Positions 6,729 to 45,733 of a DNA stretch of 45,733 nucleotides are shown piece after piece. This DNA is from a virus, in the IMG/VR virus record IMGVR_UViG_3300027749_000183, positions 1 to 45,733 of that record, one strand, 5' to 3'. A model generated the notes under the pieces. The model had not been told where the DNA came from. It did not search any database and was given only the letters and a program-made list of their open reading frames with translations. The position numbers and the translations under genes were made by a program. Position 1 is the first letter of the stretch; each line of letters begins with the position of its first letter.

Positions 6729-7391
6729 ATGTCTAGCGATACCAAACCTTGCACTGATTGCGGCAAGATCTTCCCCAGCAGCGCTGAGCATTTCAAGCGC
6801 CGCAAGGACGGTTCTCTTGACATACGCTGCCTTCGCTGCCGCGCCGACAAGATGCGGGGCAAGCGCAAGGCCCAGCAGTCCACCACGCTGCGGGACATCG
6901 AAGTGGGGGCCGTCGCTTCTTTTGTTAGCGCTGCGTCGACCGGCGGACAGAACATCCCGCATAGCTCTGAGCTGCTCGAAAGGCTCATGGAGTATTTCGG
7001 TGGAACCAGCGGATTCTCCTCTCTCCTGGTCAAGCAGTTCTTTGACAGCCCTCCAGGAGGCGCTGCAAGGACAAAAATGCTTGAGGCAATCGTCCGACTG
7101 GTGGTCAAGAACACGGACGCAGGCGGGGCTAAGAAGCCACTGGGGCTATGGTCTGAAGAGGAACTCGAAATCGAGCTAGACGGGCGCCTGCGAGTGCTGG
7201 CAGCCACTATGGTCAGAGGGAGGATTGTCGATGGGACGCCAGCGCAAGAAGCCACAAGCACCACCGCCGTTGCCGTCCGTAAAAAAGCAGACAGGGTACG
7301 AAGCCGACCGCCTGCGCGAAATACAGGCGGAGCTCGCAGATCGAAGGATCGAAGCGCTAAGGCTTTACCAGCCGACTCCGACGCAGGCTGA
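6729..7391 (+). CDS. Zinc-finger protein, putative terminase small subunit (220 aa)
   Basis: The N-terminus carries two Cys pairs (C8, C11 and C34, C37; CTDCGK...RCLRCRADK), a treble-clef-like zinc ribbon followed by a basic stretch. The middle (residues 75-175) is helical, and the C-terminus is basic and disordered. It lies directly upstream of TerL, so a DNA-recognition role in packaging as the small terminase subunit is likely. Its last 161 bases overlap the TerL gene in another frame. No ribosome site precedes ATG 6729, which abuts the terminator T-run. An alternative reading is a nuclease-accessory zinc protein. Confidence 0.65.
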   Translation: MSSDTKPCTDCGKIFPSSAEHFKRRKDGSLDIRCLRCRADKMRGKRKAQQSTTLRDIEVGAVASFVSAASTGGQNIPHSSELLERLMEYFGGTSGFSSLLVKQFFDSPPGGAARTKMLEAIVRLVVKNTDAGGAKKPLGLWSEEELEIELDGRLRVLAATMVRGRIVDGTPAQEATSTTAVAVRKKADRVRSRPPARNTGGARRSKDRSAKALPADSDAG

Positions 7392-42632: not shown

Positions 42633-43442
42633 CTATTCGATCAGGCATGGCGCCTGAGGCACGTCCTCCATCAGCTGGCCCATGTCTAGGTAGTACCGCA
42701 CCATCGTCGGCGTCTTGTGGCCCAGAAAGGCCCTAGCTTTGCCGGGCGACGCCATCTCTACGTGAGTGGCGGCAGAGCGACGCAGCCACTTGCTGCTACC
42801 GGCCAGACTGCACGCCTTAAGATGCGCACGCATTAGCCTCATGGCCCTGCGCTTCTTGCAGACCCAGCCCAGAATCGTTCCGTTCGGGCTCGCTATTAGC
42901 AGGGACTGCACCGCCTCTAGGCAGTTGTCTGGCAGGTGCACCGTGATGGCGTTGCCGGTTTTGTTCTGACTGTACCGGAGGATACTGCCCTCCAGATTGT
43001 CTTCTCCCATCAGCCACAGGTCCTTAAACCGGGCGCCGGTGGCATAGCCCAGCAGCATCCAGCACTTGAGAAACAGGGCTCGATCTATTCCGCACCGCAT
43101 GCGGCCAACGTCGTCGCCCGTTTGCTTGACCGCCGTCCGACATTGCGCTATAGTCCACGCCCGTACAGGTCGAGATGGTACCTTGATACGGACGATGCCT
43201 CTCGGAAAGCAATCGACCATTTGCCGGTCATATGCCCACCTCCAGAGGATCAAGATCATGGCCCGATCGTTGGCAACGGTCTTAGCGGACACTTGGGTTA
43301 AACGGGTCTTGAGGTATTCGTTGATTTTTTCGGCCGATAGGTGTTGACAGTTTCGAGCGACTCGCGCTAGGTTGTTCTCGTACTCGATCGCAAGGACGCG
43401 CTCCGCCACATAGGCAAAGCAAACAGCAGGGAGGCTGGTCAT
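42633..43442 (-). CDS. int: Tyrosine integrase, short form (269 aa)
   Basis: The protein has a SAM-like core-binding domain (about 10-95) and a catalytic domain with R138 (GYATGARFKDLW), K161 (SQNKTGNA), K218 and R221 (SSKWLRRSAATH), H242 (LGHKT) and Y251 (VRYYLD). The box-II His is replaced by Lys, as in a minority of the family. There is no N-terminal arm-binding domain, so it may recombine at simple core sites. It acts at the attP 106 bases upstream of its start. No ribosome site precedes ATG 43442, and rightward promoters run antisense through the gene, suggesting low, regulated expression. Confidence 0.9.
   Translation of the reverse strand: MTSLPAVCFAYVAERVLAIEYENNLARVARNCQHLSAEKINEYLKTRLTQVSAKTVANDRAMILILWRWAYDRQMVDCFPRGIVRIKVPSRPVRAWTIAQCRTAVKQTGDDVGRMRCGIDRALFLKCWMLLGYATGARFKDLWLMGEDNLEGSILRYSQNKTGNAITVHLPDNCLEAVQSLLIASPNGTILGWVCKKRRAMRLMRAHLKACSLAGSSKWLRRSAATHVEMASPGKARAFLGHKTPTMVRYYLDMGQLMEDVPQAPCLIE
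43126..43154 (+). promoter_or_regulatory. Near-consensus sigma70 promoter antisense to int
   Basis: TTGACC (43126-43131) and TATAGT (43149-43154) are each five of six to consensus, with an ideal 17-base spacer. The promoter points right, inside the integrase gene and against it. Its transcript would cover the 5' third of int, cross the start codon and meet the terminator at 43495-43525, or read through into the nuclease-ERF-helicase operon. Confidence 0.6.
43344..43373 (+). promoter_or_regulatory. Second possible rightward promoter in int
   Basis: A perfect TTGACA (43344-43349) is followed after 18 bases by TAGGTT (43368-43373), a weak -10. It could act alone or with an activator to drive the same rightward transcript. 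It is weaker than 43126-43154. Confidence 0.35.
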
Positions 43443-43488
43443 GGTTGTGAAAATTCAAGGCTGTCGTACCTCCAACAGGGAGCAGCTT

Positions 43489-44454
43489 ATGAACGCGGAG
43501 GGGGAGAGCAACCCCCCGCTTTTTTCACTAGAAAACCAACCAGAAAGCCCCCAGATTGTGATTCTAGGGGTCGCGGGTTCGAGTCCCGTTAGCCACCCTT
43601 TATTTGGAAGTTTTGGGCCCTGTGTTGCGGAGATTCGGAGGGGAGAGAGCTCCTCTGAATATCACGGGGATACCGACTGGCTGAACTGCTCCTCCGCGAA
43701 GACGGCGGTAGACAGTCCAGTCCTCTACTACCAGCGCCACGTCGCGCGCTCCCTGCCTCCCCTCAGTTCTGCCAGCCTGACGGTTGGCACTCTGGTCCAT
43801 GAGTGGCTTGAGCTGGGCGACCCCGTCCTAGACACGTGGGCCAGTCCTCCAGAAGAAACCCTAACACCAACTGGGGGGGTGGGCAAGGACGCCAAGAAAT
43901 GGGTGGCAGAGAACTGCGCTCCGGGCGCCACCATCGTCTCGCCTTCAGACCTCCGGATTGTCCGCCGCTGCATCGCAGCCATCCGGTCCAACCGCGCCGC
44001 CTGCGAGCTCATCGAGCGCGTCTCTGAGCGAGAGCTGTCCGTCCGCTGGACCAGCGCTGACGGCGACCGCCTGCGCTGCCGGTACGACTGCTTGACTGAG
44101 GACGGCCTGGTCCTTGATCTCAAGACGACGAGAGAGTCGGACGTTGCCAGAAACTTCTGGAAGGCGGTGCTTGACTACAAGTACCACCTCTCAGACGCAT
44201 GGTATCGGAGGGGGATGGAAGCGTGCGGGATGGAGCCCGCCCCTCTCCGGTACATCGTCGTCTCTACCGCACCGCCCCACGACTGTCAGGTCGTGACTCT
44301 GCCGGCGGTCATTCACGCAGTCGGCCAGCGTCTTATGGACGTCACTCTGGCCGACCTGCGACTTCGCACTGGCCTCGACTGGTGGCTGCCGGACCATCAC
44401 GGAGAGGTCTTGGAACTGTCTTTTCCGGCTTACTCACTGGGGAGATTCTCATGA
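43489..44454 (+). CDS. RecE-like PD-(D/E)XK exonuclease, ORF running through attP (321 aa)
   Basis: The conserved domain starts near residue 57 (HGDTDWLNCSSAKTAVDSPV) and matches the RecE/exonuclease VIII C-terminal (DUF3799-like) family: GTLVHEW with H104, E182 (SEREL), D200 (CRYDCL), D210 and K212 (LVLDLKTT), then YKYHLSDAWYRRG. It would resect dsDNA for annealing by the ERF protein. ATG 43489 has AGGGAG six bases upstream. After it, the only in-frame ATG, GTG or TTG before the domain is GTG 43558, inside the attP anticodon. Residues about 20-37 are thus encoded by the tRNA-like attP. The stop overlaps the ERF start (ATGA). Confidence 0.8.
   Translation: MNAEGESNPPLFSLENQPESPQIVILGVAGSSPVSHPLFGSFGPCVAEIRRGESSSEYHGDTDWLNCSSAKTAVDSPVLYYQRHVARSLPPLSSASLTVGTLVHEWLELGDPVLDTWASPPEETLTPTGGVGKDAKKWVAENCAPGATIVSPSDLRIVRRCIAAIRSNRAACELIERVSERELSVRWTSADGDRLRCRYDCLTEDGLVLDLKTTRESDVARNFWKAVLDYKYHLSDAWYRRGMEACGMEPAPLRYIVVSTAPPHDCQVVTLPAVIHAVGQRLMDVTLADLRLRTGLDWWLPDHHGEVLELSFPAYSLGRFS
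43495..43525 (+). terminator. Intrinsic terminator overlapping the nuclease start
   Basis: GCGG-A-GGGG (43495-43503, one bulged A) pairs with CCCCCCGC (43512-43519) over an eight-base loop, followed by six T (43520-43525). The hairpin begins four bases after the ATG at 43489, so translating ribosomes would prevent it from folding. It separates the antisense-int promoter from attP and the recombination genes. Confidence 0.8.
43548..43598 (+). other. attP: attP core: 3' half of tRNA-His(GTG)
   Basis: The sequence reads as anticodon stem CCAGA, anticodon loop TTGTGAT (anticodon GTG), variable loop, T-arm GCGGG-TTCGAGT-CCCGT, acceptor strand TAGCCAC and C73, the discriminator base special to tRNA-His. 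No 5' half is present, so it is not a tRNA gene but the identity segment that rebuilds the host tRNA on integration. CCCCCAGA (43548-43555) and TCTAGGGG (43563-43570) form an inverted repeat (seven of eight) around the seven-base loop, a typical tyrosine-recombinase core. A C-A mismatch at 28-42 of the stem marks where phage and host may differ. Confidence 0.87.
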
Positions 44455-45125
44455 CTGGTTCGTCTCTATGGATAGAGAGCTCTAGCTCGCTTGATCAACT
44501 GTTCGCGGCGCACGCCGCATGCACTGCGCAGCTTCGCAATGCACCGCGTACGTGCATCTCTCACTTCGCCAAGAAGGACCGCAACGGCAATCCGATCCCT
44601 GACTACGCAGACCTTGCCACCATCTTCGACGTCATACGACCGTCGCTCGCAGCCAACAAGCTGTCGATCACTCAGTCGTTTGCTCCGTTCGGAACCGACG
44701 GCAACATGATGCTGGTCACGACAATGGGCCACGCATCCGGCCAGTTCCAGCGGAGCTTCCTGCCCATGAAGGGCAACGTCCCACCGCAGCAGCTGGCGGC
44801 AGCAGCCACCTACCTGAAGCGCGTTGCTCTCTGTGCGCTGGTCGGTATCGCGGCGGACGACGATGACGATGGCGTGGTTGCAAACGGCACGCACACCGTC
44901 GCCGCAGTCAACGACGAGCGCGTGGTTGAGGACCGCGCTTTCAAGGCCATCAAGGACGCTGGCTCAGCCGACGCCCGCAAGAAGGTTCTGGATCACGCGG
45001 CGAAGTTGGTCAGCGAAGGATCGCTGCCGACAGCCGCACTGACGCGACTGCAACAGCAGGCCGACTTGGAAGGCCAGCAAAAGGCGGCAACGCCGGCACG
45101 GAAGGCAGTAGTCGCGGCGTCGTGA
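44451..45125 (+). CDS. erf: ERF-family single-strand annealing protein (224 aa)
   Basis: ATG 44451 overlaps the nuclease stop and follows GGGGAG. The ERF signature is clear: DYADLATIFDVIRPSLAANK, LSITQSF, TMGHASGQFQRSFLP, QQLAAAATYLKRVALCALVG and the acidic ADDDDDG that ends the domain (about 30-142). The C-terminal 80 residues are helical and basic. ERF proteins anneal complementary ssDNA and work with a 5'-3' exonuclease, here the preceding gene, in phage recombination, genome circularisation and repair. Confidence 0.92.
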   Translation: MTGSSLWIESSSSLDQLFAAHAACTAQLRNAPRTCISHFAKKDRNGNPIPDYADLATIFDVIRPSLAANKLSITQSFAPFGTDGNMMLVTTMGHASGQFQRSFLPMKGNVPPQQLAAAATYLKRVALCALVGIAADDDDDGVVANGTHTVAAVNDERVVEDRAFKAIKDAGSADARKKVLDHAAKLVSEGSLPTAALTRLQQQADLEGQQKAATPARKAVVAAS

Positions 45126-45203: not shown

Positions 45204-45733
45204 ATGCAACCAATACTACGCGAATATCAGACTGATCAGTGTCGTGGTGTTATCGACGCAGCCCGCAAGGGTGAGCGTCGAATCACGGTCTGCTCGCCCA
45301 CCGGCACTGGCAAGACAGAGGTGATCGCCGAGCTGTGCCGACTGGCTAAGTACCCGCTGGTCATGGCTCCTCTCGTCGACGTGATGAAGCAGACGGCTCG
45401 CCGCCTAGAGTCTCGTCTTGAGGAGTCGGTCGACATTGAGCAGGGCGCTAGCTTTGCTGAGTCAGTCGAAGGTCTTCGTAGCCGCATCATTGTCGGCAGC
45501 CGAGACAGCCTGCTCTCTCGCCGCAGGTTCTCACTGCGGGCCTACGACCGGGTCACGCTGGTGATGGTGGACGAGTGCCATATCGGGATGACGCCCCGCA
45601 TGCAGGCCATGTTGGAGCACTACGAGAAGAACGGGGCGACCATCGTCGGCTTCTCTGCCACCCCGTACAAGGGCAAGGGCAAGGCTCTCAACTACTGGCG
45701 TCGACCTCAGGTGGTGTACACGCTGCGACAGGC
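45204..45733 (+). CDS. SF2 helicase, DEAD/DEAH-type, 3' end cut by the window
   Basis: The visible 176 residues begin MQPILREYQTDQCRGVIDAA, a Q-motif-like start, then motif I SPTGTGKTE (about 31-39), motif II VDECH (122-126) and motif III GFSATPY (149-155). This is the first RecA-like domain of a superfamily 2 helicase like those in phage replication or recombination modules (UvsW/RecQ/ResIII-like). The start lacks a clear ribosome site and a weak hairpin precedes it. The second helicase domain lies beyond the window. It probably works with the nuclease and ERF protein. Confidence 0.85.
   Translation, partial: MQPILREYQTDQCRGVIDAARKGERRITVCSPTGTGKTEVIAELCRLAKYPLVMAPLVDVMKQTARRLESRLEESVDIEQGASFAESVEGLRSRIIVGSRDSLLSRRRFSLRAYDRVTLVMVDECHIGMTPRMQAMLEHYEKNGATIVGFSATPYKGKGKALNYWRRPQVVYTLRQ

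Follow-up and report, generated by a model that had tools for sequence, protein, structure and literature searches.

The window analysed here, a stretch of 45,733 bp that forms a complete viral record in IMG/VR (IMGVR_UViG_3300027749_000183), comes from a phage family whose hosts are planctomycete bacteria. At its right end the phage attachment site (attP) lies in frame inside an exonuclease gene, the first gene of a nuclease-ERF-helicase recombination operon. Integration into a host tRNA-His gene is predicted to decapitate this operon and excision to restore it, a reading to which we assign a probability of roughly 0.7. Comparison with related phages and host loci lends good support to the structure and to its predicted effect on the reading frame, and it is likely that integration changes the expression of the operon and that this change serves as regulation.

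The reading frame through attP

The exonuclease open reading frame (ORF) is open on the plus strand from 43441 to its stop at 44454 and spans the attP common core (43553-43598, plus strand), a 46-bp block that is the 3' half of tRNA-His. This agrees with the preliminary description of the window, which had placed attP in frame within an exonuclease gene. The product is an exonuclease VIII-like protein of the DUF3799/PDDEXK type with profile matches to PF12684 (49 bits, cut-off 26) and phrog_412 (E 1.8e-43), and its conserved domain begins near 43636, on the 3' side of attP. The core is identical in seven relatives, and the tRNA-His block is kept in the same frame in eight related phages (the window included, with L047 as the eighth). 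The codon phase of attP is the same in 7/7 tRNA-His phages, and their length differences on both the 5' and the 3' side are multiples of three.

Across 12 phages, again including the window, the nuclease frame has no stop in 649 codons (the tRNA block left out), compared with 17 and 25 stops in the two other frames. The open frame through attP goes beyond chance. Since the stop counts take related sequences as independent, the combined significance from shuffles is overstated; the selection test, which uses the ratio of nonsynonymous to synonymous polymorphism (pN/pS), is not based on stop counts. For the nine codons that separate attP from the nuclease domain, pN/pS is 0.31, against 1.63 and 4.30 in the other frames. 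On the other side, the first seven codons from ATG 43441 encode a conserved MVV-x-QA peptide with a pN/pS of 0.23 in eight phages, and the out-of-frame controls for these codons give 2.52 and 0.98. Purifying selection thus acts on codons to either side of attP, and translation therefore appears to run through the attachment site.

The nuclease probably starts at ATG 43441. A Shine-Dalgarno-like AGGGAGG precedes it (43429-43435, plus strand), and relatives have similar purine-rich sites. The preliminary description had favoured ATG 43489; this start is rejected, its position not being conserved. The same description had singled out the anticodon GTG (43558-43560, plus strand) as the only other candidate, and this part stands: it is the sole in-frame ATG, GTG or TTG from the core up to mid-domain, and would be the only one left in this stretch at attL. 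The nuclease and the integrase, on the minus strand, diverge from a common CATG (43440-43443) that carries both starts on opposite strands. The two starts also share this CATG in the other tRNA-His phages and in the majority of those that lack a tRNA fragment. No clear Shine-Dalgarno sequence precedes the integrase start.

A candidate early promoter, TTGACA-N18-TAGGTT, lies at 43344-43373 on the plus strand, antisense within integrase codons. The pattern TTGACA-N18-TARNNT occurs in 7/7 tRNA-His phages tested, always inside the integrase gene and 97-100 nt 5' of the ATG. The integrase codons over this site are constrained, with Cys and Gln fixed as TGT and CAA in 7/7 phages and the Leu at the -10 position always CTA or TTA, whereas of the 71 invariant degenerate residues of the integrase, 59 vary in their codon. 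The site is not called by a strict sigma-70 scan, so we only infer that it functions as a promoter. Between the nuclease ATG and attP there is also a terminator-like hairpin followed by a run of six T (43500-43524, plus strand). GC-rich hairpins occur near this position in relatives too, mostly without the T run, which is specific to the window phage.

Predicted effect of integration at tRNA-His

The 46-bp core is identical to the 3' end of tRNA-His at 17 loci in planctomycete metagenome-assembled genomes (MAGs). The codon directly 5' of the core in the nuclease frame is TAG in 17/17 host loci, compared with CAG or GAG in the phages. Joining host and phage in silico to give attL yields a complete tRNA-His, and the nuclease frame then begins inside the tRNA. 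A tyrosine integrase (42633-43442, minus strand) adjoins attP; its Pfam Phage_integrase match is slightly below the cut-off, and it also matches PHROG integrases. With an integrase next to attP and a rebuilt tRNA, the phage has the features of a tyrosine-integrase phage that uses a tRNA gene. The preliminary description had proposed that crossover would part the ORF from its ATG, ribosome site and promoter and leave it behind a rebuilt tRNA-His, and the in-silico attL agrees with this for the promoter-like site as well.

In the free phage, the promoter inside the integrase gene would drive the operon, with the exonuclease translated first, from ATG 43441 through attP. Recombination by the integrase between attP and the 3' half of the tRNA-His gene of the host would transfer the promoter, the ribosome site, the ATG and some 38 codons to attR. 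The remainder of the operon would then follow the reconstituted tRNA-His, with a TAG in frame where the upstream codons had been. Synthesis of the nuclease would stop, and the ERF protein, which is coupled to it by ATGA, and the downstream helicase would fall as well. Excision would restore the gene; integration would thus serve to switch the lytic recombination operon off.

Conversely, it had been suggested that host tRNA transcription might drive the operon in the prophage. This now appears less likely, since the host half brings the in-frame TAG and no start, and a hairpin directly follows the tRNA. This hairpin (43633-43660, plus strand) lies at the onset of the nuclease domain and was identified with RNAalifold. 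Compensatory changes are found at 7/7 of its pairs in 23 sequences from the tRNA-His and no-tRNA sets, and 89% of cells are paired compared with 76% in shuffles, a value that 0/500 shuffles reach. A hairpin after attP and inside the nuclease ORF is present in all groups; in the tRNA-His phages and those without a tRNA its loop is a purine-rich GGAGAG. In most tRNA-His phages its energy alone is not unusual, and it is far more stable elsewhere, with z of -4.6 to -9.7 in six phages carrying a tRNA-Val fragment and -6.3 to -6.8 at the tRNA-Met junction described below. When ribosomes do not open it, the hairpin may insulate the operon by limiting read-through from the host tRNA promoter, a role suggested by the stem-loops of ICEKp1 (PMC13023037). 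A role as an internal ribosome site is ruled out, as there is no in-frame start codon 3' of the GGAGAG loop.

No HTH_3 (CI/Cro-type) match above the curated cut-off was found in 20 records (22-82 kb, many of them maybe incomplete, with HTH_3 the repressor family searched), and integration itself may help to hold lysogeny. A stronger version, in which integration itself would be the lysogeny switch and the prophage would stay silent without a CI-like repressor of the recombination operon, given a hairpin that only translating ribosomes would open, is doubtful.

The ERF-family annealing protein is encoded at 44451-45125 (plus strand, Pfam ERF), its start overlapping the nuclease stop. It is followed by a ResIII/DEAD helicase (Pfam) at 45204-45733 on the same strand, which is cut off by the end of the record. 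The gene order nuclease-ERF-helicase is kept in 24/24 relatives. In the top database match, cyanophage KBS-S-2A, no integrase is annotated next to the exonuclease.

Relatives at other tRNA genes or none

A profile search for relatives gave 56 loci. About eight distinct and more distant phages carry the 3' half of a tRNA-Val(GAC) in frame in the homologous nuclease ORF. The seven with complete upstream parts have no stop in 229 codons, compared with 10 and 15 in the other frames. Near matches in genomes confirm the tRNA-Val(GAC) identity of the fragment, and no exact match for a host was found in 397 genomes.

A nuclease next to a third kind of tRNA was found in a Planctomycetia MAG (G005, contig C271; locus L105). 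An intact tRNA-Met (7007-7082, minus strand) continues in frame into a nuclease frame of 309 codons, in which the first ATG, GTG or TTG is codon 170, and the hairpin lies at about 6963-7003 (minus strand). Genes for ERF and other phage-type proteins follow on the 3' side of the nuclease up to the contig end. The locus is an apparent prophage junction that matches the predicted attL state.

A third, middle group of phages has no tRNA fragment, and an Rfam search at the place of attP in such phages gave only chance-level hits. Five of them (L054, L059, L065, L070 and L097) have inverted ACAAGSAGCATGTA motifs at this place, 5' of the nuclease domain, which are perhaps integrase sites for another host target. 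Separately, ARAGORN called tRNAs inside L037, L113, L119 and L124; these calls are judged spurious, as the sequence before the core is unlike the 5' half of the host tRNA.

Several observations weigh against the proposed off switch. In some of the tRNA-Val phages the tRNA is soon followed by a TTG or GTG, without an evident ribosome site, and the lack of a downstream start is therefore not absolute in that group. These codons, and the ATT, CTG or GTG codons present in frame, would fit initiation of the nuclease at the anticodon GTG or at some non-canonical codon 3' of attP, so that it could be expressed in the integrated state from host tRNA transcription. Such initiation is highly improbable, given the purifying selection on codons 5' of attP, the AGGAGGT that precedes the upstream ATG in two tRNA-Val records (L116 and L122), and the 169 codons without a standard start at the tRNA-Met junction.

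Others concern the prophage state. None of the 17 host tRNA-His loci has a nuclease downstream, neither an attL nor an attR was found for the tRNA-His group, and no close prophage emerged when planctomycete genomes were searched with proteins, profiles and the DNA core. The tRNA-Met nuclease comes from a MAG and is a distant homologue (34% identity to that of the window), no relatives of it were found among viral contigs, and its attR was not recovered, the contig ending within the prophage. The preliminary description had called for junctions of related prophages next to tRNA-His; what came to light is the start-less nuclease beside an intact tRNA-Met, and the tRNA-His group yielded none. Phages that normally form no lysogens, with an integrase and attP that are relics and an ORF arrangement that never matters, would account for the lack of tRNA-His prophages in the genomes searched. 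This is very unlikely, however, as the integrase ORFs are full-length in the alignment for most relatives, the attP cores match host tRNA exactly, and the tRNA-Met locus resembles an integrated relative.

The candidate promoter is proposed from a consensus match, and in the middle group the ORF is extended in the same way although no tRNA fragment is present. The placement of attP could be a neutral outcome of packing: attP must adjoin the integrase, the neighbouring lytic gene grew over it, and lysogeny is kept by an unseen repressor, with no regulatory role for the arrangement. Loss of the nuclease on integration would then cost nothing, because it is needed in lytic growth only. The very tight layout, with its common CATG and the ATGA overlap, fits this explanation, as does the extension in the middle group. 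We nevertheless consider neutral packing unlikely, since in-frame attP sites are seen with three different tRNAs (tRNA-His, tRNA-Val and tRNA-Met), conserved codons flank attP on both sides, the promoter-like site is located on its far side, and the 20 records gave no HTH_3 match above the cut-off. Decapitation of the operon on integration, probably selected for its regulatory effect, remains the preferred reading.

Comparison with known integration-coupled systems

Phage repressors and conjugative elements are known cases of gene control coupled to integration. In the window phage and its relatives, the target would be a lytic recombination operon, controlled at the codon level and with at least three different tRNAs in one phage group. 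If lysogeny were also governed in this way, these phages would have a very simple switch between lytic growth and lysogeny; phages of their hosts' phylum have so far received little study. The proposal is testable from sequence junctions and transcripts. It also suggests caution with gene callers, which would overlook a prophage nuclease of this kind, lacking a start codon, or report it as truncated. A literature search, with subscription papers largely outside it, found no report of an attP inside a lytic recombination gene.

The layout resembles that of Tn916, whose transfer genes are not expressed until the element has excised and circularized (Celli & Trieu-Cuot 1998, via PMC9632896). In Tn916, it is only in the excised circle that promoters on one side of att are joined to the operon across it. 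In the window, ATG 43441 and the putative promoter are on the integrase side of attP, and the nuclease domain, ERF and helicase are on the opposite side. Tn916 transcribes across att to reach transfer genes, whereas the attP of the window is inside the frame of the first gene of a phage recombination operon, so that the start codon and N-terminus would be lost as well.

Mycobacteriophage BPs and its relatives have integration-dependent immunity, in which the repressor is trimmed by integration (PMC4557955). They share with the window an attP inside a phage ORF whose product is remodelled by integration. However, attP of the window is in a DUF3799/exoVIII-like nuclease and not in a repressor, and integration would remove the 5' end of a lytic gene, turning it off. 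Archaeal suicidal integrases split themselves on integration (reviewed in PMC8371274), and thus also have an att site in a coding gene that integration divides. The gene split there is the integrase, whereas attP of the window is outside the integrase ORF (42633-43442).

ICEKp1, which integrates at tRNA-Asn, switches promoters with its integration state, and stem-loops attenuate the tRNA read-through (PMC13023037). As proposed for the window, a gene adjoining a tRNA att site changes its promoter between the integrated and excised states, with stem-loops that limit transcription from the tRNA. In ICEKp1 this gene is int, which is read from the tRNA promoter when integrated; the lytic operon of the window phage would instead lose its start.
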